Assembly: GCA_902761685.1 (NCBI GenBank)
Contig: CACWLI010000001.1
Span: 1 to 64,000, forward strand
Reading direction: 5' to 3'
DNA: 64,000 nucleotides
Source of the DNA: an uncultured Erysipelotrichaceae bacterium
GTDB taxonomy: Bacteria; Bacillota_I; Bacilli_A; RF39; UBA660
The translations under genes were made by a program, and so were the position numbers. Positions 37,555 through 58,771 of this stretch are shown piece after piece; position 1 is the stretch's first letter; each line of letters begins with the position of its first letter. Below the pieces are notes generated by a model that was given only the letters and a program-made list of their open reading frames with translations, was not told the DNA's origin and did no database searches.

Positions 37555-38277
37555 ATGGCAAAGAAGGATGTAGTAGTTAAGGCTGATAGAGTAAGAAAAT
37601 GGCATAGGCTTGGTAGAATTATCAGGATATCATTATTACTTCTATTATTGTTATTAATTATCATCTATATTGTTCTTAAAATATTATTCGATGATGGAAG
37701 TTTTATCGTTACTCTTGATAACAATGATATGCTTTATAGTGGGCTTGCAATGTATGAAACATTGAATGATCCTACTGCCAAAAGAAGACTTAAAGCTGAA
37801 GATTTACAGTTTATGGATAACATTTCAATTAAATGGCTTCCTGATAATATAACTGAGGCAGAAGGTTCTCATAATGGTAAAAACTATATTGCGTACACAT
37901 TTTATATGGAAAACCAAGGCGATGTTAAATTAAATTATTGGTATTCTATTATAATGGATGATGTTATTAAACATGCAGATGAAGCATTAAGAATAATGAT
38001 ATATATCAATGATAAATCAACTGTTTATGCTAAAGGAAACAGCCTTAATGGAGAAGCTGAACCTGATACTAAGAAATTTAGGGAAGACAAGGATGGAACT
38101 ATAATCTTAGAGCAAAGGAAAGATATGGAAGCTGGAGATTTAGATAAAATTACAGTTGTTGTATGGATTGAGGGAGATGATCCTGAATGTACAGATGCTC
38201 TAATTGGTGGACATGTAAGGTTACATATGAAATTAATTGAAGAGCATGATTCGGATACTATAAAAGAATTGGAGTGA
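37555..38277 (+). CDS. SipW-class surface protein, 'WIEGxDPxC' family (member 1)
   Basis: 240 residues from the ATG at 37555 (GGAGGAG site). A basic start, then one membrane helix (residues 23-45, ISLLLLLLLLIIIYIVLKIL), then an extracellular beta domain that opens FIVTLDNNDMLYSGLAMYET. Near the C-terminus is ITVVVWIEGDDPECTDALIGG, echoed by IRVYMWIEGQDVDCENKASGA in the next gene, so the two share a domain. It begins the cluster running to 58.8 kb; its stop is 7 bases before the next start. Its helix lacks an obvious cleavage motif, so it may stay anchored. Confidence 0.72.
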   Translation: MAKKDVVVKADRVRKWHRLGRIIRISLLLLLLLLIIIYIVLKILFDDGSFIVTLDNNDMLYSGLAMYETLNDPTAKRRLKAEDLQFMDNISIKWLPDNITEAEGSHNGKNYIAYTFYMENQGDVKLNYWYSIIMDDVIKHADEALRIMIYINDKSTVYAKGNSLNGEAEPDTKKFREDKDGTIILEQRKDMEAGDLDKITVVVWIEGDDPECTDALIGGHVRLHMKLIEEHDSDTIKELE

Positions 38278-38284
38278 GGTTTAA

Positions 38285-39364
38285 ATGACAAGAAAAGAAA
38301 GAAAAAATGAAAGAAAAAAAAGATTAAAATCACTAATATTATTGTTGTTTTTAACAATTATATTATTAAGTACATCAACATATGCATGGTTCACATCAAA
38401 CAGAACTGTTACAATTGATCCAATTAATGTAAATGTTGCTGCTGCATCTGGTTTACAAATTTCAACTGATGCAACTGAATGGAAAGCATTAATTAATAAT
38501 AATGATATTACTACACCACAAAACTGGAGTGCTAATGTTAATCAATTTCCAAGTGAATTAGCACCTGTATCTACAGTAGGTGATACAAATGGGCAATTCC
38601 TAAAATTCTTTAAAGGAGTTGTTGAAGGTGATGCTAATAATGGTGGTGCTATGTCTTTAACTGCAACAGCTACACCAGAAGAAACAAAAGGAACAAACGG
38701 AGATTTTATTGCATTTGATATATTCTTAAAAGTTGATGATGCTGCAACTGTATATTTAGATAATGGTTCTGGAGTTACTGTTACTAGTGGTCAAGATGAT
38801 AAAGGCTTACAATTTGCAGCTAGATATGCGTTTGTAGTTCAAGGAACTGTAGCTTCTACAAATAATTCAGCAAGTGATACTGCTAATGCAATTGCATTAC
38901 CATCAAGTAATCCAGTAGATGTAATTATAGTTGAACCTAACTATGATGGACATAAAGCATCTGGTACTAACAATGCATCAACATATTATAACCAAACTGC
39001 ATCAACAGCAGATTCTGGTGTAGCAGCTATACCTTATTATGGTGTTAAAGCACCAGTTACAGATCCAGTTGTATTAGTTAATACTAACCCAGGTGGAACT
39101 GCTGATTCAAATTTATTTACAAGTGTTAATAAATTATATAAGACAAATGTTGCATATTCAACAGCATCTGCTACTGGAAAGAAATCATTCCAAAATAATA
39201 CAACAGAAATAACTAAAAAATTACCAATTTTTGATTTAACTGAAGGTATTACAAAAATAAGAGTATATATGTGGATTGAAGGACAAGATGTTGACTGTGA
39301 AAACAAAGCATCTGGTGCATATTTAACATATAAATTAGGATTTACTCTTGATGATGATGAATAG
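38285..39364 (+). CDS. SipW-class secreted (TasA-like) protein, 'WIEGxDPxC' family (member 2)
   Basis: 359 residues. A Lys/Arg-rich start, a hydrophobic helix and STSTYAWFTSNRTVTIDPINVNVAAASG at residues 31-58. TYAWF(T) after the helix is characteristic of predicted SipW-dependent signal peptides in Bacillota. The mature part is Thr/Ala/Asn-rich beta sandwich, lacking Cys except in the C-terminal WIEGQDVDC element. Probably an abundant fibre or surface-layer component. It starts 7 bases after the preceding stop and ends at a strong terminator. Confidence 0.8.
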   Translation: MTRKERKNERKKRLKSLILLLFLTIILLSTSTYAWFTSNRTVTIDPINVNVAAASGLQISTDATEWKALINNNDITTPQNWSANVNQFPSELAPVSTVGDTNGQFLKFFKGVVEGDANNGGAMSLTATATPEETKGTNGDFIAFDIFLKVDDAATVYLDNGSGVTVTSGQDDKGLQFAARYAFVVQGTVASTNNSASDTANAIALPSSNPVDVIIVEPNYDGHKASGTNNASTYYNQTASTADSGVAAIPYYGVKAPVTDPVVLVNTNPGGTADSNLFTSVNKLYKTNVAYSTASATGKKSFQNNTTEITKKLPIFDLTEGITKIRVYMWIEGQDVDCENKASGAYLTYKLGFTLDDDE

Positions 39365-39370
39365 TAAAAA

Positions 39371-39396
39371 AATAGTGCTTGAAAAAGCACTTTTTT
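39371..39396 (+). terminator. Terminator after the TasA-like gene
   Basis: AAGTGCTT-like hairpin: AGTGCTT-gaaa-AAGCACT followed by TTTTT. Confidence 0.75.
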
Positions 39397-39440
39397 ATTT
39401 GATTTTTAAATGTAAATTTGTTGTTTGATTTTCTTTAATA

Positions 39441-39449: not shown

Positions 39450-39481
39450 TTTTAATAGAATGGGAAAGTAGGAAGTAATAG

Positions 39482-42400
39482 ATGTACAACAAAATTATTA
39501 AAAAAATTAAGGAAAACAAGTTACTAGTAGTATTATTACTCCTATTTTTTAGCTTGAATATTTTTGTTATATATAATACTTTTAGTGAAAAAACTACTTC
39601 TAGTATTTGGGATGGAAGTATAGCAACTAAATTTTCTGGTGGAGATGGAAGCGTTACAAAGCCATATATTATTAAAGATGGTAGTGAACTTGCATATTTA
39701 TTTACTTTAATTAATAGTGAAGACAACTCAGAATATTTTAATAAATTTTATTCATTACAAAATAATATTAATTTAAATGGAAAAGATTTTTCATTTGCTG
39801 AATATGATAAAAAATTTAGTGGTAATTTTAATGGTAATGGTTATTCAATATTTAATTTTAATATTAGCAAATACTATATCGATGAAGAAGAAAAAACAGC
39901 TTATGTTAGTTTACTTGATTCATTATATAGTTCTAACATTCATGATTTAAATATTAGAGATGTTACTTTTGTTGTAGATTCAGATGATATTATAAATAAT
40001 AGCGTTAAAAAAAGTAATTCTGATAATGAAGATGTTAATGCCAATGAGGCAGTTGTAATAGATAACAAAGATAATAGTGAAACTTCTAATAGTAGTGATA
40101 GTGAAAAAAATAAGATAGAAGAGAATATCAAAGATAATACTGATTCAACTATTGATTCAACACAAAATAATGAAAATGAAACTGAAAAAAACAGTGAAGA
40201 GTCTAAAGAAGAAGTAACAAATGAAAATACTGAAGATAATGTTAAAACTGAAGAAGAAAACACCAACGATGTTACTAAAGAAGGTAGTGAAGAAAATCTT
40301 GAAGTTGAAGAAAATCCTGATGAAGTTGTTCAAACTAAAATTGAAAACTTTGAGATTGCATTATTTAGAAATGTTGAACAAACAGTTTTAAATAATATTA
40401 GTATTAACAATATAAAAGTAAATTATAAGGGTAATCTTGAAATAGTTAGATCATCACTATTTGTGCTTAATGATGTTTCTAATAATAGAATTAGTAATAT
40501 TAATATAAATGGTGAAAGTACAATAAATGATACTACTGTATTAATAAACTATTATAATGATGCTAGTATTAATAACATTATTTCATCTACTAATTCTTTA
40601 ACTCTTATAAACAATTATGAGGAAGAAAATAGTACAATTTATAGTTATAAAATTGTAGATGGAAAGTTAACATTTGATAATAGTTATCCTGTTAAATCTA
40701 TTTTAGAAACTTTTAATAATAATTCAAATTATTTATGGAAATTTGAAAATAATCAATTTAGAATTGTTAATAATGGAAAAGATGATACTAAGAATACTTT
40801 AAAAGCAAGAAAAATGATTAGAAGTATTCCTAGTGGACATAAAAGCGGTATAGAAGGGGATACAGTTTATGTAAATGATTATGAATCTGATGCTAATTAT
40901 TATGATGGTTTAAACTATACATATTCTTCTGACTTTAAAACACCTACTACTGAAAAGAAAAATATTTATATTGATTCTAACTTGGTATTTGTACAAGTAA
41001 ACTATAGTGGAACAGACAAAAGTAATACTTATACAGGGTATGTTTCTAATAGTGAATCACAAAGCAAATATGTTTATTATAAAATATATAAAGTAAATGA
41101 TAATGGAACAGGGGATACTAGTGATGATTATGTTGAATTTGAATTAATTGATAATCCATTTGCTAGAAGACCAAATTCAAGAGTATTTAATGGATGGATT
41201 ACTGACTACGAAGGAGCAACAATTTCTCTTAACACTGATATCTATGTTAGAAGCATTAAAATACCTGTTACTTATAATGGAAATAATCCAAATAATATTA
41301 ATATAAATGTATATGCTGTTTGGGGCGAAGGATCTATTACTAATTATAGAAATAGTACATATGGTTATGCTTGGAGTGATACATTTAGTTATTTAAGTTC
41401 TAAGGGATTCCATTCTGTAAGTTCTTTTATAACAGAATACGAGAGTGTTACACCATATTATGTGAGGGCAACTGCTAGATATAATAGAACCTATCCTTCT
41501 GATGCTGTAAATAATTATGGCGAAGCATTAACAGGAACATGTAATTCTATATTTGGATGTACATACTATACTCATGCGACTGGATCATATAACGCAGGTA
41601 CAACATATTATGAATTAGATGGTACTATGCAAACACATACTGTTCAATCATATCAAGTATATCAGTCTGATATACCTGTTGGAGAATCAATAGCCGGTTA
41701 TTATAGACAAGTAACTATTCCAAGAAATGCTTCTACTACTGGTTACTTTGATACTAATGGTAATTCACTAAATGGTACATGTACAAGTAACAATTGTACT
41801 TGCTATGAATTAATACCATATTATGATGATAATGGTGATGAAGAAGTTGTAATATCTGGTACTTTGTATTATTACTTGACAACTAGAGACACAAATATAG
41901 TTGTTATGACTAGCAATGTATCTTCTACTTGGTCAAGTAACCAAAATAAACCATTTACTTTAACTGGTATTAACAATGGAACTAATTATTATACTAGTTA
42001 TTATTGGAATACTAGAAGTGCTTATGTTCAAGCTTATGCAGATACAAGAATAGAATTTTTAAGAATATATGGACCTGCCAACTTAAATACTGATACATCC
42101 CCAGGAGTTAGAAGTACAAATTATAATACTTCTCCTGCAGCTGGTGGTATGTTTGGAAATTATTATAATCTTAAAATTGGTAGAGGACTTGTAAGATATG
42201 ATGATTCTGCTTCTAACTTTACATATGTTGCTGGTGGTAATAATACTTCTACTGGTGGTAGTAGATCAAGTTTAACTAAGTATAGATTAATAATTGAATC
42301 AGGCTTTTATAATAACTTAAGTTTAACTAGTGTATTATATGGTAATAATAATAATCAAACAAGAGAATATTATATAGATGTAACAGGAATATATGGAAAT

Positions 42401-45400
42401 GATTATGATAGAGTTCATGGCAACGATAATGATAACTTAGAAGTTAAATACTGTGCATCTGGTTCATGGTCAGGACTTCTATATGGTGAGAGTGTTACTA
42501 AACCAATGTTACATACAATTGTAAAAAGTGGTTCATATGGTACTAATAAATACGACTATGCTGCTGGTTTATATGTTGGTGGTAGAGGTTATGGAGAACA
42601 TAATTCAGCAAGAGAGGCTATTATTGAAGGTGGGTACATATATAACTTAATAGGTGGACCATTCTCTCAAGAAGCTAATAAACAATATAATGATGCATAC
42701 ATCTATATGAAAGGTGGAAGTGTTGATATTATTATTGGTGGAGCTGGAAGAAGTACAACATATGGAAATAGAATTATTAGTGTAACTGATGGAACTGTAA
42801 ACTATGCTGTATTTGGTGGATCAAATGGTATTGAAGGAAATGATTCAAATTATAATAGTACTGTTGATGGGGATTCATATGTTTATATTGGTGGATCTGC
42901 TGTAATAGGTAATACTGCTTTAGGTGAAGATGCTATAGAATCTACTTCTATGGTAGAAGCAGGAAGTGTATTTGGAATTGGTAATGGTAGAGAAGGATAT
43001 AGTGAAATTGGTACTGTTAACAATTCAAATGTAGTTATAGATGGTAACGCTATTATTAATAAGAATGTCTATGGTGGTGGAAATTATGGTGCTACTGGAC
43101 AAAATGGTAGCAATAAAACATATAATACTAACATAGTTATTCATAGTGGAGAAATAAAAGGTTCTGTCTATGGTGGTGGAAATAATAATGGTGCTGGTTC
43201 AACAAGCAATACAACCAATATTTCTATTTCAATGGATGGAGGAGAAGTTAGTGGATCTATTTATGGAGGTTCTAGAAGTAAAGGTAGAATATATGGTTCT
43301 ACTAATATAAATGTAACTGCTGGAACAGTATATTCTGATATATATGGTGGTGGTGAAGGTGGTTATGAAGACGATAACAATTATGGAACTTATGTAAGAG
43401 ATAATGTAGATATCACTATTGGTAACTCAAGTGGTGGACCAACTATAAATGGTTCTGTTTACGGAGGAAGTGCTTTTGGTAGTGTAAATACAGTAAGTGA
43501 AAATGCTACTGCTAATAATAATACAATTAATGTAACAGTTAATAATGGAAATATATTAAACTCTGTTTATGGAGGAGCAAAAGGAAGTGATACATTTACT
43601 CCTCAAGTATGTGGAAATATTACTGTAGATATAAACGGTGGAACAATTCCATCAGTTTATGGTGGATGCGATCAATCTGGTAAACCACTAGGTTCTGCTA
43701 CTGTGTATATGGATGGTGGAACAGTAACAAATATCTATGGTGGTGGAAATAAAACATCTATTGATGATACTAATATATATTTAAGAGGTGGAACATCAAC
43801 AACTGTTTATGGAGGATCTAATCAATTAGGTGATGTTATTAACACAAATATTCATGTACAAGGCGGAATAACTAACACTATATTTGGAGGAAATAATGAA
43901 GGTGGAACTTGTCAAAATACAAATATAGACGTACATGGTGGGACAATAAATACAGCAATATATGGTGGTGGTAATTTAGTTGATACTATTTCTACTAAGA
44001 TAGATATTTATAAAATTGAAAATACTTTACCAGCCGTCTATGGTGGAGGAAATCAAGCAGGAGCAACTACAACATTAATTAATACATATAGCGGAGAAGG
44101 AAATGTTAATATAACTGATGTTTATGGAGGTTCTAATCAAAGTGGAAATGTAGGAGAATCTACTATAAATGTTAGACATGGAAATATAACTAGTGTGTAT
44201 GGTGGAAATAATGCTGGTGGTGAAACTGATAAAACAAATGTTAATATAAGTGGAGGCACTATTACTACCGTTTATGGTGGAGGAAATGAAGCTGATACCA
44301 CAAATACTAATGTAAGTATTACTAATGGAACAATTAACCTTGTATATGGTGGAGGAAACCAAGCAAAGGTTAAAGAAGATACAAATGTTAGTATGAGTGG
44401 TGGAACGGTAAATACTACTATCTATGGTGGTGGTAATGAAGGAGCTATTAACGGAGAAACGCATGTTACTATTACTGGAGGAACAAGCGATAAAGTCTTT
44501 GGTGGTGGTAATAAAGCAGCGGTAGAAAAAAATACACATGTAGACTTTAATAATGGAACAACAAATACAATCTTTGGCGGAGGAAATCAAGCTGAAGTAA
44601 AAGAAAATACATATGTAAATGTTAATGGTGGAACAATAAACACTGCAATATATGGTGGTGGTAATGAAGGAGCTATTAACGGAAATACTAATGTTGTTGT
44701 TACAAATGTTGCAAATACTCTACCAGATTTATATGGTGGAGGAAATCAAGCAGGAGCCTCAACAACAAATGTAACTCTTAATGGAAATGCAAATTATACA
44801 ATCACAAATATATATGGAGGTTCTAATCAAGCTGGAACAGTAAATACATCAAATGTAATAATTAATAATGGAACTTCTACAAATGTATATGGTGGAAATA
44901 ATGCCGGTGGAAAAACTGCTACAACAAATGTAACATTAAATAATGGAACAATTAGTACTATTTATGGTGGAGGAAATGAAGCGATAAGTGATGATACTCA
45001 TGTCACTATAAATAATGGAAGTATACAGGATATTTATGGTGGAGGAAACAAAGCAAATATTACTAATTCAACAAATGTGGAAGTAATTAAATCAACTTCA
45101 CAAATTTCATCTATCTATGGTGGAGGAAATCAAGCAGGAGCCTCAACAACAAATGTAAATATTAATCCAGCAGATACAATAAATATTACTAATGTATATG
45201 GAGGTTCTAATCAAGCTGGAACAATTGGAAAATCAAATGTTATAGTAAATAATGGAACAATATCAAATTTGTATGGTGGAAATAATGCCGGTGGACAAAC
45301 TAATGATGCTAATCTTACACTAAATAATGGAACAGTTAATAATATGTTTGGTGGAGGTAATAGAGCTGTTACTGGTAAAACAAATGTATTAATTAATAAT

Positions 45401-48400
45401 GGACATATTAATGTTTTATATGGTGGAGGAGATGCAGCAGGAGTTAATCAAGATACAATTCTTACTATGCTTGGTGGTAGTACAACATCTAATATTTATG
45501 GTGGAGGAAACCAAGGAGCAGTAGGAGGAAATACAACTGTTGTTATTAACAATTCAAATATTGGTGGAAGTGCTTATGCAGGAGGAAATGGTTCAACTGC
45601 TACAGTACAAGGAAATACTGATATAACAGTTGGTGGAAATACAGTTGTTGGATCAAGTTCATGTACAGTTCTTAGTACTTGTTCTGTGTTTGGTGGTGGT
45701 AATGCTGCTACAACTGGTTCAGAATTAACAAATGATTCAACTGCTAATGTTAAAATAGCAGGTGCTACTATTTATGGAAATGTATATGGTGGTGCTAATA
45801 CTTCTAAAGTATATGGTGAAACAAATGTTAATATTGGAGCTGATGTAACACTTATAGATAACGTTACTAGAGGACCAATAAGTATACATGGAACAGTATT
45901 CGGTGGTGGTGAAGCAAATGCTTCAGGATCTGATGAATACGACTGGACATTTGTCAGTGTTACTAAAGGAATTACTGTTAATATAAATGGTAATAATTAT
46001 GAAACATTTGATATTTTAGGTTCAATATTTGGTAGTGGAAATGCATCTACTGCTGCAGGAACGAGTGAAGTAACTATTAAAAACTATGGAACATTTAATA
46101 ATCCAAAGAAAAATACTTCAATACAAAGAACTGATTTATTAACAATTGATAATTCATCAATTATATTAGTTGGAGCAACCGATAGAGAAAATGAATACTC
46201 TGATGTATTATTTAGTTTATCAAGAATTGATGAATTGGATTTAGTTAATAATTCAACTTTATATCTTGAAACAGGTGCTAATCTTTTACAAGAATTTAAG
46301 AGTTTAACAAGTAGTGGAGATTTAGCTAAAGTTGATATTGATAGTGATAATGGAACAATTACTAAAAATGTTGATAATAGAGTTTATATGTTTATTGATA
46401 AAAAACTTAACATAGCTAAAAACCAAAATGTTACAGATTATGGTGAAGTTAGTGGTATGTCATTCTTTGGAATGTATAAATACAATTCTAATGGAACTGT
46501 TAATACTGGTATATATAACAAACATGATTATGGAGATACTCTTGACTGGGGTGGTGTATTTGATAATGTATCATCTTATGTTCTAGGACTTCATAAAGCA
46601 AACCATGATATAGAAAAAGATGGATTCTATACAAATTATATTGATGATACAACTAGTAAAAATGTACCAAATTATATAACTCCTACACCACCTAGTGGAC
46701 CACTTTATATGTGGACAATTGGTGAAGGAGTAATTGAATATACTGTTGAATTATCAGCATCTAAATATTCTACATTAGGTACTGCAGAACTTACACTTAG
46801 AGATTTTACAGATCCTAATACTACTTTCCAAATTTTAGGATTTGATTACAGTGAAATAGCTGAAGGTATTTCTTTAGTAGAAAAAAATAACATAAAGAAA
46901 ATTGCTGATAATGAAACTGATGCAGATACAATATTTGGTTTATCAATGGAAACAAGTAATGCAGGATGGCTTGCTAATAGTAGTACACAATTTTTAACAA
47001 GAGAAAATGATCCTGTAGTTGGTTCTCAAAACTATATTGGTGGTAATAACTCATCAGCACCAACTATATTATTCTATTTGCATCACTCAAAAAATATAGC
47101 AACATCTGGTGATTTAGGTAAAGTAACAATACAATTAATGTCAATTAGACAAATTGATGCTTTAACAAAAGAAACTAAGAGACTTATTATTACTGTTGAT
47201 ATGTCTAGAGTACTATTTGATACAATTAATTATGAAGGAGCTATGACAGCAGGTCGTAAATATGAATTATTTACATCTACAGCTACAAATATTACATCTT
47301 CTTCTTCAATTAGTGCATTCTATTCATTATTTAATACAGGAAATAATATTTATAGAGAAGGATATCATAGAAGTTTAGTTTCAAATTATGTATTACCATT
47401 AAATACTAAAATTACTATGATTGATTATAGTAATGATGATACTCAATACTATTATCATATTATTAATCAAAATGATGTTGATGAAGCAACGCTTGAATTA
47501 CAAAATCGAAGAGAAGTTGCTTATGATATATCTATGTTTGAAGTAATGGGCGCTGAGAATAGCGGAGTATACTATAATGATGCTATTAAAAATACAGAAT
47601 ACTATCATAGTAGTGAAGGATATTGTAATGAAGAGTTTATATTTATAATAGACTTTGGCGACACTAATATAACTTCTAATTCAATTGGAAATCAATTATT
47701 AATTGAAATTAGAGATGATGATGATGAAACCATCTATAGTGTACTTGCACCACAACATTTAGATATGGTGTATAACATTTATACAGGAAAAGATGCTATA
47801 ATAGATATGGATGGTACAATAGATAAAAACAAAATATATAATGGTGAATCTTTAATAGCTGACTTAAATATTGATTATACTCAATCAATGGTTGGTTCAA
47901 CATTAATATATGATACTCATTATTTTGATTCAAAACTTGGTATTAAGATTTCTTTAATAAACGAAGAAGGGGAAGTTGTAACTGGAACTACTTTACTTGG
48001 TTTATATTATGAAATAGATGGTGTTAGATATGATCCAAATATCGATGGAACTACAAGAATTAAAATAGCAGATAAAGTTGATAGTGCTGAAAAGTGGGTA
48101 ATAGTAAATACAGGTACATCAAAGATAGCTTCTGGAAATTATAAGTTAAGATTTGAATCATTTGGTTCTGCTGATGGAATTTATTATGGTTTAAATTCTT
48201 CTGACACTAAAGATTTTGATATTGAAATTGTAAATGAAATTTATGGTCTTGATATTGATACAGCACCAGAAGATATGATTATTAATAAAGATACTGGCTT
48301 AAATGCAAATGATACTGATACAATTACATATAATATTTCTTATAACTCTGGTCTTAATAATCCAAGTATAAGATTAAAAATGTATAGAAGAGGATACGAC

Positions 48401-48644: not shown

Positions 48645-48755
48645 ATGAATGAACTTAATAACAAAGATTTATTAGAACTATATGAAATATTAAAAAAGTT
48701 TATTAAAAATCTTGAAAACGCTAAGGAGGAATATGACAATGATAGAAAATCTTAA
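48645..48755 (+). CDS. 36-residue small protein
   Basis: ATG at 48645 follows GGAAGGA (48631-48637), 13 bases after the giant gene's stop, and reads MNELNNKDLLELYEILKKF then a Lys/Glu-rich helix to a TAA at 48753-48755. It overlaps the next gene's start in another frame. It is a plausible amphipathic helix with a real ribosome site, but short enough that it may simply couple translation of the next gene. Confidence 0.5.
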   Translation: MNELNNKDLLELYEILKKFIKNLENAKEEYDNDRKS

Positions 48756-50247: not shown

Positions 50248-50306
50248 TAATTGACTATTATTGTTTTAAATTATATAATTGATTTATGGTAGTAGAGTGA
50301 GGGTTT

Positions 50307-50840
50307 ATGAAAAAAGTATTAAATTTTATTAAAGGAATTATTATTTCTGTTTGGGTTTTAATTGCTATAGTTACAACTATATGCTTAATATCATATAATG
50401 ATTATAGTGTTAGTGAAATAGGAGATAATTCAATCTTTATTGTAGATAATGAAAGATTAGAACCTGATTTTTTGAAAAATGATTTAGTTATTGTTAAAAA
50501 AGTAGCAGAAAATAAATATCATGTAGGAGATCCTGTATTTTTCTATATAACTAATCCTGCTGATGCAGTATTTATTAATTATGGTAAAATTACTAAAATT
50601 GTAGAAGCAGATCACGCAGAAGATGCATATTGTTTTGATGATGATGTTGTTTCTTATTCTGATATGATAGGTCCAGCAAATGGAGCTATTGTTTATCATA
50701 AATGGGGATTAGTATTATCTATATTTGAATCAAGATGGGGATTTATGTTCTTAGTTATTTTTCCAACTATATTTGCTATAGTATATGAAATCTATTCTAT
50801 TATAGAGGAAGCTAGAGCAGCAAGAGATGAAGAAGAATAG
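50307..50840 (+). CDS. Catalytically dead signal peptidase I homologue
   Basis: 177 residues. N-terminal helix (about 10-32), a peptidase-like domain and a C-terminal helix (about 142-162), as in SipW. Alignment by eye with the neighbours shows the loss: their SGSM or TGSMEP site reads NERLEP here (IFIVDNERLEPDFLKNDLVIVKK), so Ser becomes Arg, and the VTHR/VTHK His site reads VFINYGKI. The fold and the LVIVKK strand are kept. It may be a regulator or chaperone of signal-peptide processing. The next gene overlaps its last 14 bases. Confidence 0.75.
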   Translation: MKKVLNFIKGIIISVWVLIAIVTTICLISYNDYSVSEIGDNSIFIVDNERLEPDFLKNDLVIVKKVAENKYHVGDPVFFYITNPADAVFINYGKITKIVEADHAEDAYCFDDDVVSYSDMIGPANGAIVYHKWGLVLSIFESRWGFMFLVIFPTIFAIVYEIYSIIEEARAARDEEE

Positions 50841-51480
50841 TATAAGAATTTTACTTTGGTCATTAGTAATAATATTTATTATTATTACTTTTACTTTATT
50901 TAAAAATACTTTCGCTTTATTTGAAACAGAAGCAAGTGGTAAAGCAAACAATGATATAGGTAAGTGGATAATCAAAATAAATGATGAACTGATAAGTGAT
51001 GGAATAGTAGAAACAATTAGTGTTGATCAATTTGTATATGAAGAAAATGAAAAAGTAGAAAGTGGTTATATAGCTCCAGGAACAAGTGCATATTTTGATT
51101 TAGTATTTGATGCAACTGAATGCGATGTTGCGGTTAAATATGATATAGAGTTTTTATTAGAAGATATGGATTATGCTGAAAATATAAGCATTACTGTTAA
51201 TGAGACTGGTGAAAATAGTTCTATTAAAACTGGACCAAATACATATTCTGGTGTAATTGATTTAGATTCTATTATTGATGGGGATTTAATTACACTTAGG
51301 ATAACAATTAATTGGGCAAATTTAGAAGATTATAATGAAAGTGATACACTTCTTGGAACAACTGAGGATAGTAAATTGAGTGTTCCGATTAAAGTATCAG
51401 CAATACAATATTTAGGAGAAGAAATAATTCCTTATGTTGAGAATGATGAAAATGATGGAGAAAGTAATTTAGGTGGCTAA
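50827..51480 (+). CDS. TasA-like SipW-class secreted protein
   Basis: 217 residues. The hydrophobic segment is followed by KNTFALFETEASGKANNDIGKWIIKIN, the standard start of the SipW-substrate family ('a.f.t.asg.a...IakW.ikvn'). The mature part is a beta sandwich of about 165 residues with one Cys (TECDVAVKYD). The ATG is inside the end of the pseudo-peptidase gene (14-base overlap), so translation is coupled. It has a close cousin at 59360 on the opposite strand (AKYISSANASADLTIARWNILIN). Confidence 0.78.
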   Translation: MKKNSIRILLWSLVIIFIIITFTLFKNTFALFETEASGKANNDIGKWIIKINDELISDGIVETISVDQFVYEENEKVESGYIAPGTSAYFDLVFDATECDVAVKYDIEFLLEDMDYAENISITVNETGENSSIKTGPNTYSGVIDLDSIIDGDLITLRITINWANLEDYNESDTLLGTTEDSKLSVPIKVSAIQYLGEEIIPYVENDENDGESNLGG

Positions 51481-51584
51481 ATTACTTTTTTAATTATTGA
51501 TTATTTATATAAAAAATGATATATTTGATAATATAGAATGGATTATAATGAATTCTATATAAAGAATAAAAGGATGGTTGCATA

Positions 51585-52334
51585 GTGCCAAAGGTATTAA
51601 AGAAAGTATTAAAAACTATTGTCGATATTTTAACTTTACTTGTTTTTTTAGTTTTAATATTGATTATTTTTACTAAGGTTAAAATGATGTTTAGCGGAAA
51701 AACATATTTTGATTTTTTTGGCTATTCTGTTTTTAGTGTAGCAACAGGTAGTATGGAACCAACTTTAAAGCAAAATGATGTTATTCTAATTAAAAAGAAA
51801 GACTCTTATAAAGTGGATGATATTGTTACATTTAAAAGTGATGATTCATATGTAACACATAGAATTATATCTAAAAAGGGTAATGATATTATTACAAAAG
51901 GAGATGCTAATAATACTAAGGATGTTGGTATTAAAGAAGAAGACATAATTGGAAAAGTAATAAAAATATATTCTAATGCTGGAATATGGCAAAAAGTTTT
52001 TACAACTCCACAAATTATAATAATGATATTTGTTACATTAATTCTATTTGACTTTGCTTTTTCTTACAAAGGATTTAAACAAAAACAAAATGTTAAAATT
52101 GTAGATAAAATTAAAGATGTTAAATTAGAAGAAGTAAATAAAAAAGAAGAAGCACCTAAAATGAGTGATTTGGAAATAGTAGAATTATATAAGAAAACTG
52201 ATATGGTTAAAAATGGTGAAGATGTTAAATTTGATAAAAAAGAGAAAGAATTCTTAAATTATACAATAAGATTAGATTTAAACGAATTACAAAAAGAAAT
52301 TGATAATAAAATGAATGGGGATAAGAATGACTAA
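51585..52334 (+). CDS. sipW: SipW-type signal peptidase with a long cytoplasmic tail
   Basis: 249 residues, GTG start 7 bases after AGGATGG. N-terminal helix (10-30), then VFSVATGSMEPTLKQNDVILIKK with the catalytic Ser, YKVDDIVTFKSDDSYVTHRIISKK with the His, and DIITKGDANNTKDVGIKEEDIIGKVI, all intact. A C-terminal helix (about 138-155) is followed by an 85-residue charged tail with helical segments, longer than in Bacillus SipW. It is placed between TasA-like substrates, which it should process. Confidence 0.9.
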   Translation: MPKVLKKVLKTIVDILTLLVFLVLILIIFTKVKMMFSGKTYFDFFGYSVFSVATGSMEPTLKQNDVILIKKKDSYKVDDIVTFKSDDSYVTHRIISKKGNDIITKGDANNTKDVGIKEEDIIGKVIKIYSNAGIWQKVFTTPQIIIMIFVTLILFDFAFSYKGFKQKQNVKIVDKIKDVKLEEVNKKEEAPKMSDLEIVELYKKTDMVKNGEDVKFDKKEKEFLNYTIRLDLNELQKEIDNKMNGDKND

Positions 52335-52926
52335 AAAGTTTTTTAAAAACTTTGATAAGAAAAGATTTATATTAGTTAGTGAATTAATATTTGTTTTAGC
52401 ATCTTTATTTGCAATAGTAAATATAGTAGGTAAAACATATACTAGATATGAATCTAAAGTAGATGTAAGCGCTGATGCTAGTGTTGCTTTCTTTGTTGTT
52501 GACCAGGGAACATATGAAAGCTCTATTTCATTAAATGGATTAACACCTAGTTTAGAACCAAAATATTACAAATTTTATGTTACAAATTATAAAGATGATA
52601 AAAGAGCAAATGTTGATTTAGAATATAAAATTACATTTGAAACAACAACTAATTTGCCTTTATATTATGAAATTGTAAGAAATGAAGAATTTACTACTGG
52701 GTATACAAATATAATAGATGAAGAGAGTGTAAGACAAGATGAATATGATGTCTTCTATAAGGTGTTTAAAGATAATAATACATATAGTTTTAATCACAAA
52801 AGAAATGAAGCTGATGAATACACTTTAAAGGTGATTTTCCCTGAAAGTTATAAAGATCAACCAGACTTATATCAAGGGAAAGTTGAATTATTTTCTATAA
52901 TAATTGATGCTTCTCAAGTTGCATAA
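52327..52926 (+). CDS. TasA-like SipW-class secreted protein
   Basis: 199 residues from the ATG at 52327 (8-base overlap with SipW; an earlier in-frame ATG at 52315 is possible). A helix (about 11-30) ends in VGKTYTRYESKVDVSADASVAFFVVDQG, matching the SipW-substrate pattern with A.xY.s.v. The mature part is all-beta, no Cys. It is coupled to the peptidase gene, so peptidase and substrate are made together. Confidence 0.77.
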   Translation: MTKKFFKNFDKKRFILVSELIFVLASLFAIVNIVGKTYTRYESKVDVSADASVAFFVVDQGTYESSISLNGLTPSLEPKYYKFYVTNYKDDKRANVDLEYKITFETTTNLPLYYEIVRNEEFTTGYTNIIDEESVRQDEYDVFYKVFKDNNTYSFNHKRNEADEYTLKVIFPESYKDQPDLYQGKVELFSIIIDASQVA

Positions 52927-52938
52927 ATAGACATAATA

Positions 52939-52947
52939 TGCTATAAT
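52939..52947 (+). promoter_or_regulatory. Internal extended -10 promoter
   Basis: TGCTATAAT, 23 bases before the start codon at 52970; it could drive the downstream half of the cluster on its own. Confidence 0.5.
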
Positions 52948-52969
52948 TTTTATGATTGGAGAATAGCGG

Positions 52970-53869
52970 ATGAAAAGAAGAACGCTCATCATAATAATTA
53001 TAGTATTTTTATTGTTATTACCATATGGAATTACTTTAAGTCGTTATGTAGTAAAAAATATTAGAAATTATATTATGGAAGCAAATAATTTCTTCTTTAA
53101 TTCTGACAAATTGGTTGATGGTGGTACTACTTATGGTATAAATAACTGGGGTGGTGCTGGAAATATTGAAATACAATTTGAATTAAACAATCATAAAAAC
53201 AATATATTAACTAGCGATAGTGATATTACTTATACACTATCAACAACATGTGATTCAAGTGTTATTTGTTCTCTTAATTCAAGCAGTGGTATTATCTATA
53301 AAGATGAAAAAACAGATGATTTTGTATTAACTGTAACACCTTTAAGACCATTTAATGATAATGAATCAGTAACGATAAATGTAACAGCAGTTTCTAGTAG
53401 TCCGTATGTTAAAACACTAAGCGCTACATTTGTAATTACTGTAGGTAAGAGAGGAATTGATTACGAAATAACAGATAGTGTTAATTCACCTTATTTTATG
53501 TTTTCAATAACAAATGCTCTTGATACATATAAGGTTGTTAGTGCTTTTAATGGCCATAATGTAGGTGATATTCTTACAACAAATGAATATTTAGCATTAT
53601 CAAATGATTTAAAATCTAAATGTGCATCTGTAGTAGTAACATTAACATTTGATCCATCTATTGTAATAATTGATACAACTAGTGATATATTGAAAAAATC
53701 AACTTTTCAAACAACACAATATAATGGTGTTGATTATATAAGCAGTATAACATTTGGAATAGATGCTATGACAAATGAAGAGGTAAGATTTTATAAAAGA
53801 AATAATAGTGAAAATTATACTTATCCTTTTGTAAATGATACACCTATTGTTACATTTACTGCTTCATAG
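52970..53869 (+). CDS. SipW-class surface protein with 'FYFNSD'-like element
   Basis: 299 residues. A helix (5-20, IIIIIVFLLLLPYGITL) is followed by SRYVVKNIRNYIMEANNFFFNSDKLVDGG, similar to the '.Y.LaSknFYFNSD.L' segment seen in other secreted proteins of this kind (from memory). The body is two beta-sandwich domains: CDSSVICSLNSSSGIIY (a possible disulfide) and TNALDTYKVVSAFNG. No C-terminal anchor. Likely a surface or fibre subunit, as with its neighbours. Confidence 0.72.
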   Translation: MKRRTLIIIIIVFLLLLPYGITLSRYVVKNIRNYIMEANNFFFNSDKLVDGGTTYGINNWGGAGNIEIQFELNNHKNNILTSDSDITYTLSTTCDSSVICSLNSSSGIIYKDEKTDDFVLTVTPLRPFNDNESVTINVTAVSSSPYVKTLSATFVITVGKRGIDYEITDSVNSPYFMFSITNALDTYKVVSAFNGHNVGDILTTNEYLALSNDLKSKCASVVVTLTFDPSIVIIDTTSDILKKSTFQTTQYNGVDYISSITFGIDAMTNEEVRFYKRNNSENYTYPFVNDTPIVTFTAS

Positions 53870-53878
53870 GAGGAATTT

Positions 53879-54856
53879 ATGGATTGCATATATGAAGAAT
53901 ATATAAAATATGTAGATAATTTCCTTGTTAATTACTTTAAGTTATTACTTAGTACTAAATATGAAAAGAGATTAGTAAAACCATTTATTGATAAATATAT
54001 TGATGTAAGATATTACAATAAATATGTGGTTAGAGATGATGATTTTACTAATAGACTTAATAGAGAACTTAATAATATAGCAAAAGAAGTAATGGAGGAA
54101 AATGAAGATAAAGTAGATAAAATAAAGAATGTATTTGCTTTATTTAGCTATGTTATGTTTATTGATGGATGTACAAAGTTTACTGATTTAAATACATTAC
54201 TTAAAACACTTTATTCAGATAGTAATATTACTCTTGAATATTCTGATAGTACTAAAAAAGAATTGAATTCATTAGTAAGAGATTATATAAGTAAAAAAAT
54301 TGCATTCTTTAAGTTGTTTGAATCTGATGAGTTCTATTTAAAAGGTAAAAAGTATCCAAATAATATATATATTGTGGATGTAGGACAAAGATGTAATGTT
54401 TCTAAATTATATAGTGATTATGCTGTTGAAAAAGCATATAATTCGGATTTAGTAATAGAAAACAAGACTTATTTAGGTATTTTGATGATATCATCTAAGA
54501 TATTATCTGAGGTAATAGCTTTAGATTTTAAAAATAATTATATAATAGATTTTCCTGTTACATTACTTGAAAAGCCTAAAAAGATAATTAAGTTTTTAAA
54601 AGCATTAGATGATGAATTATTAAGAACAAAAATACATCTAAAATTTAAATATAAAGATTTTAAAACATATAAAAGAGAAATATTTAATTTAATAAATCAA
54701 GATTATAGTGTGTGTCTTGAATTAGATGAAACATATGACATTAATTTTGATGATTTATTCTTATTTAGTTATATACTTGTGGATAGAAAATATAGATACT
54801 ATAATATAATTATTAATAGTAAGGAAGATGTTAAAACAAACATTATTACATTGTGA
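53879..54856 (+). CDS. Cytoplasmic protein of the McrB-like module
   Basis: 325 residues, GGAGGA site, 9 bases after the preceding gene. No signal peptide or membrane helix; helical N-terminus (KRLVKPFIDKYIDVRYYNK, then FALFSYVMFIDGC) and a mixed C-terminal part. It ends 8 bases before the AAA+ gene, so it should be part of the same complex. Family not recognised. Confidence 0.7.
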   Translation: MDCIYEEYIKYVDNFLVNYFKLLLSTKYEKRLVKPFIDKYIDVRYYNKYVVRDDDFTNRLNRELNNIAKEVMEENEDKVDKIKNVFALFSYVMFIDGCTKFTDLNTLLKTLYSDSNITLEYSDSTKKELNSLVRDYISKKIAFFKLFESDEFYLKGKKYPNNIYIVDVGQRCNVSKLYSDYAVEKAYNSDLVIENKTYLGILMISSKILSEVIALDFKNNYIIDFPVTLLEKPKKIIKFLKALDDELLRTKIHLKFKYKDFKTYKREIFNLINQDYSVCLELDETYDINFDDLFLFSYILVDRKYRYYNIIINSKEDVKTNIITL

Positions 54857-54864
54857 GGTGAGAG

Positions 54865-56400
54865 ATGAAAACCTTTTTGAAGTTTTTTTACGAAATTTTA
54901 TCACAATTTTTTTCAGGATTTATTGCTTTCTTTAATGGAATAATTGAAGGTGTTAAAAAGACTTTCAACATAAAAATGTATATTAAGATAGCTAGCGAAT
55001 ATAAAAATGACTTTAGTGTAGGTGAGTGGATTCTTTTTGGAATAGCTGTATTATTACTAATAGCATTTATAATTCTTGTTGTATTTTTAGTATTATTTAT
55101 AATTAGAAAGTATATTAGATTTAGAAAAACAATTGTAGAACAAGAATCAATGCTTGATGAAATATCAGAGTTAAATGGTAAAGTAGCTACATTATTAAAA
55201 GAAAAAGAAGATATTTTAGCTATGAAAGTATCTCAAATTGGACTAAGACCAGGAGAGTCACCTGTTATAGAAGGTGCTACTGGTGGTGAAAACGCTGAAG
55301 AAGAGATAGACACTAATACTTCTATTAGATTTGCTAAATTACATGATGTAGATGTTCAATATCAAGATTATAAACCAATTAATTATGGAAATAATTTCTC
55401 ACTTTCAGATTTAGTTGAAATGTTTAGAAACTTTGCTGCTAGTCAATTAGGACTTTATTATAAAAGCGAACTGATTAGATTGTTTATATCAGCATTAGCA
55501 AGTACAAAACTTGTAATTTTACAAGGTATATCTGGTACTGGTAAAACATCTCTTGCTTATGCTTGGGGAAAATTTTTGAAACATGACTCATGTGTTGCGT
55601 CTGTTCAACCTTCTTGGAGAGATAGATCAGAGTTATTTGGATACTTTAATGAGTTTACAAAGAAATTTAATGAAACAGATATATTAAAAGAACTTTATGA
55701 AGCAGGTTATACAGATGATATTCATACAATTATTCTAGATGAAATGAACATCTCTCGTGTTGAGTATTATTTTGCTGAAATGCTATCAATACTAGAGATG
55801 CCTAATAAAGATGAATGGATTGTTGAAATAGTTTCTTCAGGATGGCCAAGTGACCCTAAACATTTAAAGAGTGGTAAATTAAAAATACCACCAAACTGTT
55901 GGTATATTGGAACAATCAATAACGATGACTCAACATTTATGGTTACTGATAAAGTTTACGACCGTGCTATGCCAATAGATATAAACGATAAAGGACAAGT
56001 ATTTGAACCAACTTCTGTTATGGCACAAGATATTAACTATTCATACTTAAATGGATTATTTGAAGATGCAATTAATAATATTAGTATGAGTGAGGATGTT
56101 CTTGCTAAAATAGAGGAAATGGATGATTATGTAATTCAACATTTTAGAATTGCCTTTGGTAACAGAATTGTTGCTCACATGAAAAAATTTGTTCCAGTTT
56201 ATATGGCGTGTGGTGGAGATGAAATAGATGGAGTAGATTACTTCATTGCTAAAAAGATATTGCGTAAGTTTGAACAATTAAATATATCATTTATTCGTGA
56301 TGAAATAGATGGTTTTGTAAGTTTTTTAAATAAAACATTTGGTGAAGGAAAAATGAAAGAATGTATTGAATACGTTCTTAGATTAAAGAAAATAGGATAG
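54865..56400 (+). CDS. Membrane-anchored McrB-type AAA+ ATPase
   Basis: 511 residues. A hydrophobic stretch at 10-30 and a strong helix at about 54-82 (WILFGIAVLLLIAFIILVVF) put the N-terminus in the membrane, followed by a coiled coil (about 90-135). The AAA+ domain follows: QGISGTGKTS (Walker A, Lys227), TIILDEMNIS (Walker B, Asp292 Glu293) and the McrB-type 'GTINNDDSTFMVTDKVYDRAM' sensor, close to GTMNxxDxS..xlDxAlrRR. McrB of restriction systems is soluble with a DNA-binding N-terminus; here that end is replaced by membrane helices. So a role in the envelope is likelier than DNA restriction. Confidence 0.85.
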   Translation: MKTFLKFFYEILSQFFSGFIAFFNGIIEGVKKTFNIKMYIKIASEYKNDFSVGEWILFGIAVLLLIAFIILVVFLVLFIIRKYIRFRKTIVEQESMLDEISELNGKVATLLKEKEDILAMKVSQIGLRPGESPVIEGATGGENAEEEIDTNTSIRFAKLHDVDVQYQDYKPINYGNNFSLSDLVEMFRNFAASQLGLYYKSELIRLFISALASTKLVILQGISGTGKTSLAYAWGKFLKHDSCVASVQPSWRDRSELFGYFNEFTKKFNETDILKELYEAGYTDDIHTIILDEMNISRVEYYFAEMLSILEMPNKDEWIVEIVSSGWPSDPKHLKSGKLKIPPNCWYIGTINNDDSTFMVTDKVYDRAMPIDINDKGQVFEPTSVMAQDINYSYLNGLFEDAINNISMSEDVLAKIEEMDDYVIQHFRIAFGNRIVAHMKKFVPVYMACGGDEIDGVDYFIAKKILRKFEQLNISFIRDEIDGFVSFLNKTFGEGKMKECIEYVLRLKKIG

Positions 56401-56420
56401 AATAAAGAAGGGATTTAAAA

Positions 56421-57548
56421 ATGCAGAATGAGCTTAAAGTTATAGAATTATATAACAATTCTGATGAAGAAATAATTAATAGATTTAATTCTTCATTAAA
56501 ATCAAAGTATAATATAACATCTAACTATGAAAAAATAGAAGCTGATTTTGCATGGTTAGATATTATGGAAGATACAATAATGTATTTAGATAATATATTA
56601 AGAAACCCTAATAGATTTATTATTAATGAAGAAGAAATTGTTAAAGTTGAACAAGCTAAAAGAATTACTGTTGAAAGTATTAAACATTTAGCTAAACATA
56701 CTAATTATATTCAAGAAATAGAAGATAATGGAGATGTAAAACCTTCAAAAGTTTTAAATATTAATAAAGATGAAAGTTATAACACATATGAAAATAGATT
56801 GATTTACACTTTAATTAATAACATGAAATTATTTATTGAAATGAAAGAAAAGGCTTTTGTAGGTTCTTCTTCACTAAAGGATGATAAAAAGTGTGAATAT
56901 CAAGCTGTTTCAAAAATTGGAGCAGAAAAAATAGTATTTACTATGGCTTTAACAAGTAAAACAGATTATGAAAAAGAAGATGGTATAAGAAATGGTCTTA
57001 GTGTTGCTCAAAGAATTGAGAAACTTAAATTAAGAATTTCTGATTTAACTAATATGCCGGTATATGTTGCTCTTGCAAAAGAACATGTTGCTAAAGTTAT
57101 ACCACCTGTTAAAAAAACAAACTTAATATTAAAGAATACGAACTTTCAATATGCAATGAAATTATGGAATTTTCTACAATCATATACTAATGATGATACA
57201 AGAATAGTTAAAGATAAAAAGAATAGTGAAAATGATACATTAATGAAGCAAATGTTTGATGATACATTTTTGCTTAATTATTTGACTGTTTCTAGTGTTA
57301 ATCCAAATTATACTAATTTAGATGAAGATGCTAAAAGTGAGTTAATAGAAGATATTACTAATAGAATGATTGATAAGATAGTTGAATTAAATGTTGATTT
57401 GCCTATAGAAAGAATTCAAGAAATAATTGGTGAAAAAATAGCAGTTATTAAAAGCAAAAGAGAAGCATCTCTATCTGAACTTGAACATAAGTTTAATGAA
57501 AGAATTGATGCATTTACTGATAAAATTACAGAATTTAGTTTTAGGTGA
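56421..57548 (+). CDS. DUF2357/McrC-N-like partner of the AAA+ ATPase, no nuclease
   Basis: 375 residues, 20 bases after the AAA+ gene. The segment NKDESYNTYENRLIYTLINNMKLFIE (about residues 114-140) matches the 'TYENRFvkyll..l' pattern of DUF2357/McrC-type adaptor proteins. Helices dominate, with a coiled coil at the end (SKREASLSELEHKFNERID). I see no PD-(D/E)xK nuclease site (D then ExK), which McrC restriction subunits carry at the C-terminus. It probably stimulates or docks to the AAA+ ring. Confidence 0.65.
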   Translation: MQNELKVIELYNNSDEEIINRFNSSLKSKYNITSNYEKIEADFAWLDIMEDTIMYLDNILRNPNRFIINEEEIVKVEQAKRITVESIKHLAKHTNYIQEIEDNGDVKPSKVLNINKDESYNTYENRLIYTLINNMKLFIEMKEKAFVGSSSLKDDKKCEYQAVSKIGAEKIVFTMALTSKTDYEKEDGIRNGLSVAQRIEKLKLRISDLTNMPVYVALAKEHVAKVIPPVKKTNLILKNTNFQYAMKLWNFLQSYTNDDTRIVKDKKNSENDTLMKQMFDDTFLLNYLTVSSVNPNYTNLDEDAKSELIEDITNRMIDKIVELNVDLPIERIQEIIGEKIAVIKSKREASLSELEHKFNERIDAFTDKITEFSFR

Positions 57549-57552
57549 TGAT

Positions 57553-58131
57553 ATGAAAAAAATAAAAAATATTAAAGAAAAGATAGAAAGTAACGTAGTA
57601 TTTAAGATTCTAAAATGGATTATTAATATTATAGTAATTCTATTATTGTTAATAATAATAGTTCAAAAAGTTACTAAAAATAATTTTGCTGTTGGTGGTA
57701 TAAGAATATTTATGGTAGTATCTGGATCAATGGTTGATGAGTACAATATTGGCGATATTTTAATATCAAAAGCAACAGATGAAGAAGATATTAATGTTGG
57801 AGATAATGTTACATATCTTGGTAAAACAGGAGGAGTTAAAGGTTTAATAGTAACTCACAAAGTTATTAATAAAGAAAAAAGAGATGGAAATACATATTTT
57901 GTTACAAAAGGTATAGCAAATGAAATATCAGATCCTGAAATAACTTATGATCAAATATATGGAAAAGTAATATATAAAACAATAGTTTTAAGTTTTCTTG
58001 GAAAACTAATGAGTAGAACGATAAGCTATTATATTTTATTTATGATAGTTGGCGTTATTATTTCATTTGAAATAGTTTCTTCTATGTTTGACTCTGATAG
58101 AGAAGAGGATGAAGATGGAAGAAAAGAATAA
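57553..58131 (+). CDS. sipW: SipW-type signal peptidase
   Basis: 192 residues from the ATG at 57553, four bases after the preceding stop. N-terminal helix (about 23-42), then FMVVSGSMVDEYNIGDILISKA (catalytic Ser in SGSM), VGDNVTYLGK, LIVTHKVINKEKRD (catalytic His in VTHK), YFVTKGIANEISDPEITYDQIYGKVI and a C-terminal helix (about 150-170). All sites of the ER-type family are intact. It is the third intact SipW in the window and is followed directly, with overlap, by a TYAWF-type substrate gene. Confidence 0.9.
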   Translation: MKKIKNIKEKIESNVVFKILKWIINIIVILLLLIIIVQKVTKNNFAVGGIRIFMVVSGSMVDEYNIGDILISKATDEEDINVGDNVTYLGKTGGVKGLIVTHKVINKEKRDGNTYFVTKGIANEISDPEITYDQIYGKVIYKTIVLSFLGKLMSRTISYYILFMIVGVIISFEIVSSMFDSDREEDEDGRKE

Positions 58132-58771
58132 AAAGAAAAAGAAAAGTTTATTATATTATATTATAAAAAAAATAAGAATAAGTCATATTATAATTCTTAT
58201 AGTTTTATTAGCAGCTAATACATATGCATGGTTTATATATGTTAATACTGTTAGCAATAGTGTTGATGTTCATGTTAAAAGTTGGAGAATTGATTTTGAT
58301 GATGGAACACAACCGGTAACAGATTATGTAAATGTATATGTTGATAATGTATATCCTGGAATGACAACTTTTGAAAAGCCAATTAATGCATATAACTATA
58401 GTGAAGTATCTGCTAATGTTACATTTAGTATAATAGAAGCTCAAATTATGGATGAAACTTATGTAACAGTTGAGGGAAGAAATGAAAGAAGTCAAACTGT
58501 ATTAGATACTGATTTAACAAGTGCACAATTAATTAATAAGCTAGGAAATGATTATCCATTTAAAATAAGATTTGATTTATCTTCTAGTACAATGGAAGCA
58601 CAAGATGGTGAAGCTACATATACAATTTCAATTGAATGGCCATATGAGTCAGGAGATGATGATGCTGATACATTATGGGGAGTTAAAGCTTACCAATTTA
58701 AAGAGGAGCATCCATCTGCTCCTTGTATACGATTTATAGTTAAGATATATATAACACAAGCTAATGAATAG
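58115..58771 (+). CDS. SipW-class secreted protein with TYAWF signal
   Basis: 218 residues from the ATG at 58115 (17-base overlap with the SipW gene). A long Lys tract, then the helix ISHIIILIVLLAANTYAWFIYVNTV, the same TYAWF element as the protein at 38285. The mature part is a beta sandwich of about 165 residues with one Cys near the end. Its stop codon lies in a terminator, closing the cluster. Confidence 0.78.
   Translation: MEEKNKKKKKSLLYYIIKKIRISHIIILIVLLAANTYAWFIYVNTVSNSVDVHVKSWRIDFDDGTQPVTDYVNVYVDNVYPGMTTFEKPINAYNYSEVSANVTFSIIEAQIMDETYVTVEGRNERSQTVLDTDLTSAQLINKLGNDYPFKIRFDLSSSTMEAQDGEATYTISIEWPYESGDDDADTLWGVKAYQFKEEHPSAPCIRFIVKIYITQANE

Follow-up and report, generated by a model that had tools for sequence, protein, structure and literature searches.

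What might a McrB-like NTPase be doing when it is held in the membrane and encoded in the midst of signal peptidases and exported proteins? The question is raised by a gene cluster in a 64,000-nucleotide stretch of DNA from an uncultured Erysipelotrichaceae bacterium (GenBank contig CACWLI010000001.1), which as a whole is termed the window below and along which all positions are counted. The analysis described here points to a motor whose probable role lies in helping to build the cell surface rather than in DNA cleavage, and the locus is read, with somewhat more confidence than doubt, as a surface-protein system in which a nuclease-free, membrane-tethered McrBC-type NTPase of the CoCoPALM type is docked on the signal peptidase SipW and serves the export, processing or assembly of surface proteins.

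The core of the locus is a compact block of ten genes (50307-58771), all on the plus strand and joined by overlaps or short gaps, the largest of 104 bp. From 5' to 3' it encodes a catalytically dead SipW-type peptidase, a 217-residue exported protein, an active SipW, exported proteins of 203 and 299 residues (the latter termed sec5), a 325-residue protein termed p325, the AAA+ motor, a DUF2357 protein, a second active SipW and a 227-residue exported protein. The exported proteins, a repeat protein of 3049 residues, the three SipW-type genes and the p325/AAA+/DUF2357 trio (53879-57548) named in the original prediction were all found at their positions on the plus strand.

The membrane-anchored motor and its nuclease-free partner

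The motor is a 511-residue protein (54865..56400, plus strand) with a single predicted transmembrane segment (TM) at residues 62-80, followed by Walker A (GISGTGKTS, 221-229), Walker B (ILDEMN, 290-295) and an NxD motif (352-354, within TINNDDST), and the three motifs are invariant across 26 aligned relatives. When its profile was compared with PDB sequences, McrB was the only match (three entries, E 4.2e-4 to 6.1e-4), which, with the predicted TM, bears out the proposal of a membrane-anchored McrB-like AAA+ protein. Among 170 copies, in which some loci are counted twice, 168 have a predicted TM within the first 250 residues and 167 carry N[NKRT]D[DE]ST, which reads IGTINNDDST with its flank in the window. 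Residues 3-40 form a strongly amphipathic helix, whose periodicity was reached by 0/200 permutations, and the heptad signal at 84-121 is not clear (15/200 permutations reach it). Pfam gave no FtsB/DivIC match in the window protein and no modified-base-binding domain in its N-terminal 190 residues, which are occupied by the amphipathic helix, the TM and a linker.

The gene immediately downstream encodes a 375-residue DUF2357 protein of the McrC N-terminal domain type (56421..57548, plus strand), with PF09823 matched over residues 27-147 (E 1.5e-10). The absence of a nuclease, as originally proposed, was upheld by three tests, none of which recognised one. At residues 148-375, E169 is the sole acidic column conserved at 90% or more across 50 relatives; no PD-(D/E)xK core is visible in the structure model (mean pLDDT 73.9, moderate confidence), nor was a PD-(D/E)xK nuclease matched by Pfam; and 11 partners of other membrane-type motors (7 + 4, some of them also lacking a PF09823 match) gave no Pfam nuclease match. 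As a control, six partners of soluble McrB-like proteins of the phylum were inspected, of which one carried PDDEXK_7 (L153, E 9.5e-52) and five showed no nuclease by Pfam, so that Pfam alone is weak evidence on this point.

Compared with McrBC of Escherichia coli, the locus shares a McrB-type AAA+ domain and a DUF2357 partner in one operon, whereas it has no recognisable PD-(D/E)xK nuclease, carries a membrane anchor where McrB has its DNA-reading N-terminal domain, and shows NxD in place of NxxD. The claim that no system of this composition had been described does not stand, as CoCoPALM was named by Bell et al. in 2024 (eLife, PMC11090510) for FtsB-like membrane-anchored McrB-type GTPases associated with signal peptidases, in a few sentences and without analysis, within a restriction survey. 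In the same source, the NxD motif is treated as a marker of the CoCoNuT-like side of the McrB tree. The McrB-type NTPase with NxD, the N-terminal membrane segment, the DUF2357 partner and the signal peptidases of CoCoPALM are all found in the window. The CoCoPALM passages of that paper make no mention of p325, of a dead SipW, of SipW-p325 fusions or of exported substrates, and the present loci may figure in its supplementary listing; besides the paper and its preprint, nothing relevant by title was found in the literature on CoCoPALM. The composition is thus of an already described kind, to which the present analysis adds the EAL-like p325, its fusion with SipW, a dead SipW that is conserved, and substrates of the SipW type.

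p325 as a probable link between motor and peptidase

Between sec5 and the motor lies p325 (53879..54856, plus strand), for which no TM is predicted and which is composed of a helical N-terminal part and, at residues 148-325, a predicted degenerate EAL-like fold. No Pfam family, EAL included, was matched, and within 148-325 the conserved acidic columns are limited to E194 (97% acidic) and D283 (82%), the EAL metal/base set not being kept. While p325 is a separate protein in the window's own branch, in another branch an active SipW carries it as its C-terminal domain. Of the 120 long homologues listed, 118 include SipW, which is N-terminal in 118/118. The length window of that search (441-1403 residues) admits fusions and excludes unfused p325, so 118/120 is not the fusion share of all p325. 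In the 12/12 genomes with a fusion, it stands directly upstream of the AAA+ gene, whose match begins 4-21 bases downstream; in two of the twelve (G455, G462), TAG codons were flagged within the matched stretch. The existence of such fusions next to the motor ties the module to the peptidase. In two of these proteins (L177:5935-8343 and L178:7502-9937), short repeats of the form LxKTxxxRxxSV lie in the cytoplasmic stretch that links SipW to p325, and the pattern occurs at least once in 54 of the 120 listed p325 homologues.

The fold of residues 148-325 resembles those of the degenerate EAL proteins FimX, YdiV and STM1697. FimX is a c-di-GMP reader that gates type IV pili, and p325 might likewise read c-di-GMP through its EAL-like domain and gate the motor. 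Such second-messenger control is regarded as very unlikely: the EAL metal/base set is not kept, PF00563 was found in 0/14 genomes, and among five GGDEF proteins read, two, the long-type one included, were without a GGDEF-type motif. From FimX, YdiV and STM1697, p325 also differs in lacking a Pfam EAL match and in being joined to or beside a signal peptidase.

Active and dead SipW peptidases

SipW was called with TIGR02228 at its cut-off of 51.85 bits. Both the enzyme at 51585..52334 (plus strand; Ser56/His92, E 3.3e-22, 79 bits), which bears a tail of about 88 residues after its second TM, and that at 57481..58131 (plus strand, start probably at 57553; E 2.7e-21, 76.1 bits) pass it and keep the catalytic Ser and His. 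The gene at 50307..50840 (plus strand) scored 25.3 bits, below the cut-off, and by alignment has Arg and Tyr in their place, in agreement with the expectation of two intact peptidases and one dead. The cut-off of the Bacillus SipW equivalog NF046067 (190 bits) was not reached.

The catalytic columns were then counted by alignment over the related loci, the window included where present. In the slot after DUF2357, Ser is kept in 79/79 and His in 79/79; in that before the 203-residue gene, the counts are 46/47 and 47/47. They fall to 11/51 for Ser and 2/51 for His in the dead slot before the 217-residue gene, and to 0/21 and 2/21 in the corresponding slot directly before sec5. Because Ser and His are mostly lost in the dead slot of relatives too, the inactive protein is taken as a kept component, and a catalytically dead SipW is, as judged from the alignments, a conserved slot of the system.

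Exported proteins and their cleavage sites

SipW-type signal sequences were assessed by a loose pattern that requires, behind a hydrophobic stretch, a small residue and an aromatic one two positions further on; the control was scored with the identical pattern. It was found in 68/69, 49/53, 30/50, 69/78, 69/74 and 64/65 members of six exported families, and in 24/114 other exported-like genes from the same loci. In SipW-TasA-TapA of Bacillus subtilis, the poor cleavage of TasA, which is a SipW substrate, by ordinary signal peptidase I is put down to an aromatic residue at P2', and to the P2 position as well (PMC10269814). An archaeal-type signal peptidase is common to that system and the window, as are exported proteins whose P2' residue is aromatic; a McrB-type motor is not mentioned in the parts of that source drawn on here, and the exported proteins of the window are without detectable TasA homology. 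The description of these proteins as TasA-like accordingly survives as regards the SipW-type signal sequence, with its aromatic residue near the cleavage site, and found no support as regards the TasA family in the family and profile searches made.

Within the block, the exported proteins are those of 217 residues (50827..51480, with a SipW-type signal sequence), 203 residues (52315..52926), 299 residues (sec5, 52970..53869) and 227 residues (58088..58771, with the SipW-type sequence TYAWF), all on the plus strand. Upstream on the same strand lie a 359-residue exported protein with a SipW-type signal sequence (38285..39364), which has relatives in 61 of 80 related loci and whose family gave the 68/69 above, and the 3049-residue exported repeat protein (39482..48631), which has one N-terminal hydrophobic segment and relatives in 50/80. 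Two families show the pattern less often. That of the giant protein has it in 23/51 only, and the 250-residue protein at 37525..38277 (plus strand, relatives in 56/80), with a TM at 37-55, is regarded as membrane-anchored and no clear SipW-type precursor, given the 14/57 of its family. This protein and its 38285 neighbour have in common a short C-terminal motif, WIEGxDxxC, a weak match (E 0.00026, probability 42%).

The one-strand arrangement originally proposed is true of the genes it named and does not extend to a further exported gene of the cluster, a 199-residue protein on the minus strand (58782..59381), convergent to the block and related to the 50827 protein (phmmer E 4.7e-11). This type of gene is oriented opposite to the AAA+ gene in 64/65 copies, the window included.

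Conservation of the module

A scan of genome contigs with the AAA+ protein yielded 119 relatives, and the best 80 were kept as the related loci; the motor is therefore present in all of them by construction, and the flanks are limited to 10 kb or the contig edge. By their titles, all come from uncultured or metagenome-assembled bacteria (Erysipelotrichaceae, Bacilli, Clostridia, Tenericutes, Mollicutes and some unnamed). Relative to the window, identity is 0.63-0.87 in the 80 AAA+ copies, 0.36-0.76 in the 80 DUF2357 copies and only 0.20-0.75 in the 73 full-length copies of p325. DUF2357 directly follows AAA+ in 80/80 loci and in the window, and SipW directly follows DUF2357 in 78/80, the other two (L015, L067) stopping there at a contig edge; p325 is present in 78/80 and sec5 in 75/80. 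The order sec5-p325-AAA+-DUF2357-SipW is kept with gaps of 50 bp or less in 75/75 pairs of sec5 and p325, 79/79 of p325 and AAA+, 79/81 of AAA+ and DUF2357 and 78/79 of DUF2357 and SipW, the window being included in the counts. Since nearly the same gene order recurs in 80 other loci, the arrangement in the window is not due to chance.

The motor is a single-copy gene in 14/14 genomes of 0.9-1.7 Mb, and sec5 was found in 9 of 392 genomes of the phylum, 8/9 of which also have this AAA+ type. In three loci (L098, L099, L104) the motor is present twice, at a distance of about 15 kb, and each copy has a SipW and exported genes to itself; after the upstream one, a gene of 251-255 residues stands where a recognised DUF2357 would be.

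Linkage of SipW to the wider motor family

Of the 392 genomes, 84 gave an AAA+ match with an E value of 1e-20 or lower; in five of them the match is weak (1e-21 to 1e-27) and the protein of the soluble type. With TIGR02228 at E 1e-10, SipW was found in 72/79 genomes with a membrane-type motor versus 53/313 others (Fisher p 7e-36, phylogeny not controlled). Gene neighbourhoods were surveyed in 79 rows from 80 regions (L091-L170), L146 being left out as the simple gene caller kept a longer antisense frame there; a SipW was counted within four genes on the same strand, and motors were classed by length, the 510-residue class comprising copies of 402-557 residues. As L170 is the same locus as L094, the 26/28 rows of that class amount to 25/27 distinct loci with SipW nearby, and the two without are L118, on a 4.8-kb contig, and L127. 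The corresponding count is 17/18 for the 600-residue type and 0/8 for soluble McrB-like proteins of the same phylum. Together with the 78/80 close loci, these figures support the expected association of the AAA+/DUF2357 pair with SipW.

Exported-like genes near versus farther from the motor number 102/179 versus 56/156 for the 510-residue type (one locus counted twice), 63/133 versus 29/131 for the 600-residue type, 31/78 versus 3/32 for tandem motors, 14/65 versus 22/95 for the 900-residue type and 5/51 versus 5/47 for soluble ones. A link to exported proteins is therefore seen in three types (510-residue, 600-residue and tandem) and not in the 900-residue type. In the motor tree, support is 0.997 for the window's class, 0.996 and 0.984 for two others, and only 0.51 for the node joining all membrane-anchored classes.

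Two of these architectures deserve description. In L112-L126 (for example L122:2657-14266), an AAA-DUF2357-AAA tandem stands without SipW beside very large N-terminally anchored proteins in those loci that were read, and a second surface use of the same motor is possible there. Multi-TM motors of about 600 residues are found in L132:6237-17993 and similar loci, where their neighbours are SipW, a large exported protein and a pair of short exported ones. In L132, L140 and L143, which were read in detail, there are also an ABC transporter, represented by an ATPase and a permease-like gene, and a partner whose zinc-ribbon matches are sub-threshold.

Counter-evidence and alternative explanations

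Several observations weigh against a surface-protein system built on this motor. No TasA homology was found among the exported proteins, by Pfam and NCBIfam for those scanned and by PDB profiles of two families, and the DUF2357 model is, as noted above, only of moderate confidence. The NxD motif is not specific to the membrane type, as 8/8 soluble McrB-like copies of the phylum have it too. In addition, p325 was not seen beside every motor: among 39 motor genomes of one order, a p325 match is listed for 23 and, at the cut-off, for none of the other 16, p325 being found by another profile in at least one of these (G073). SipW also occurs without the motor, as in the 53/313 genomes above; for instance, L176, from a genome without an AAA+ match (G161), has SipW, a sec5-like gene and a 2607-residue gene without AAA+, DUF2357 or p325. 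SipW secretion as such can therefore do without the motor. Finally, two membrane-anchored subfamilies lack SipW neighbours, namely the tandem-AAA type (0/13) and the 900-residue type (1/12, the single locus, L142, also holding a 600-residue motor). On whether relatives keep the AAA+/DUF2357 pair apart from SipW, the outcome is thus divided, the close classes holding them together and these two apart.

With SipW clusters lacking the motor and motors lacking SipW both in existence, it might be argued that the two are mere neighbours, linked only by vertical inheritance in compact genomes. However, the linkage persists over the 510- and 600-residue architectures, whose neighbours are otherwise different, each of the duplicated motors is accompanied by a SipW of its own, and fusions of SipW with p325 lie next to the motor, which together render this extremely unlikely.

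An envelope-linked phage defence, in which a Type IV restriction relative would sense infection at the membrane and the surface genes would be guarded or use the motor as an addiction partner, would suit the McrBC ancestry and the description of CoCoPALM within a restriction survey (PMC11090510). PADLOC contains a relative of the AAA+ protein under the name PDC-M26A (E 4.5e-35), and matches confined to the AAA domain, with less than 60% identity and covering less than 80% of the query, were obtained from 266 plasmid records and 2 phage records; both results also count against the surface reading. PDC-M26A is taken by us to be a candidate defence label. The window cluster is, moreover, adjoined by a retron-type reverse transcriptase (36463-37428, just 5' of the cluster; PADLOC RT_Ec107-like E 2.4e-123, RT_III-A 2.7e-103), which has no relative in the 80 related loci. 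Nevertheless, no nuclease was recognised in DUF2357 or in the 11 partners of other membrane-type motors, a match covering 80% of AAA+ was found in 0 of 72,556 plasmid and 0 of 50,697 phage records, and a scan of viral contigs with two peptide patterns gave no confirmed relative. Considering also the single copy in 14/14 small genomes, the stable gene order and the SipW-p325 fusions, we regard defence as quite unlikely.

The motor might alternatively pull stalled or uncleaved SipW precursors from the membrane, or remodel the peptidase, in the manner of an AAA+ chaperone or dislocase that does not power normal export. Such a quality-control role would accord with a membrane-anchored AAA+ protein tied to an active peptidase with a conserved dead one alongside, with the amphipathic N-terminal helix found besides the TM, and with SipW clusters that can exist without the motor, whereas no degradative protease gene was recognised in the block by Pfam; on balance it is deemed unlikely, if still worth keeping in mind.

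Proposed mechanism

For the preferred reading, that of a motor docked on SipW, the following arrangement can be envisaged. The AAA+ protein would form a McrB-like hexamer under the membrane, and DUF2357 would sit in or on this hexamer and stimulate hydrolysis as in McrBC. As the putative counterpart of the cytoplasmic SipW tail domain of other branches, p325 would dock the motor on the peptidase, and NTP hydrolysis would drive or gate the processing, export or assembly of surface subunits. The components served would be the anchor at 37525, the subunits at 38285, 50827, 52315 and 58088, and the giant protein at 39482, and the dead SipW may hold unprocessed subunits. An ATP-driven step by which fibres would be exported, assembled or released, as originally suggested, would be plausible, and the nucleotide could differ, McrB being a GTPase.

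A bolder version is offered tentatively and with less than even confidence. A restriction-type NTPase would here be the cytoplasmic engine of protein secretion and fibre assembly, the EAL-like SipW tail, which in this genome is the separate protein p325, clamping the peptidase to a membrane-anchored McrB ring that is activated by a nuclease-free McrC; hydrolysis would drive cleavage, release or polymerisation, with the dead SipW as substrate holder.

Other features of the window

Between the giant gene and the block, a 511-residue protein without a family match is encoded (48712..50247, plus strand), which has relatives in 27/80 loci, often near the giant gene. A weak promoter-like site with an 11/12 match lies 5' of the block (50251..50279, plus strand); such sites are not enriched in the region (98 versus a shuffle mean of 103.6). 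At the block end, a terminator-like hairpin of 11 pairs is followed by a T run (58753..58779, plus strand), one of two in the region against a shuffle mean of 1.0. No RNA family was found in the window by Rfam.

A second, small SipW-type set is located at 11910-17390, comprising a 799-residue exported protein on the minus strand with a Hint-like stretch recognised by eye, a 175-residue exported protein and a 378-residue multi-TM protein that resembles signal peptidases and has a match to the 51585 SipW (E 2.4e-7). Three further proteins (19213-20532, 23524-24867 and 30029-31099) have a common hydrophobic N-terminal module, LSALR[IV]VRI..IKIVVPIILIV, and differing C-terminal parts that by eye are esterase- or glucosaminidase-like.

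Significance

CoCoPALM systems had been named and left unexplained. Through the SipW-p325 fusions beside the motor, a McrBC-type NTPase and a signal peptidase are linked in a concrete way that can be tested, which shifts this branch from restriction toward cell-surface biogenesis. If the reading is true, a defence-type motor minus its nuclease would have been reused at the membrane, and SipW-dependent surface assembly could have an energy-driven partner.

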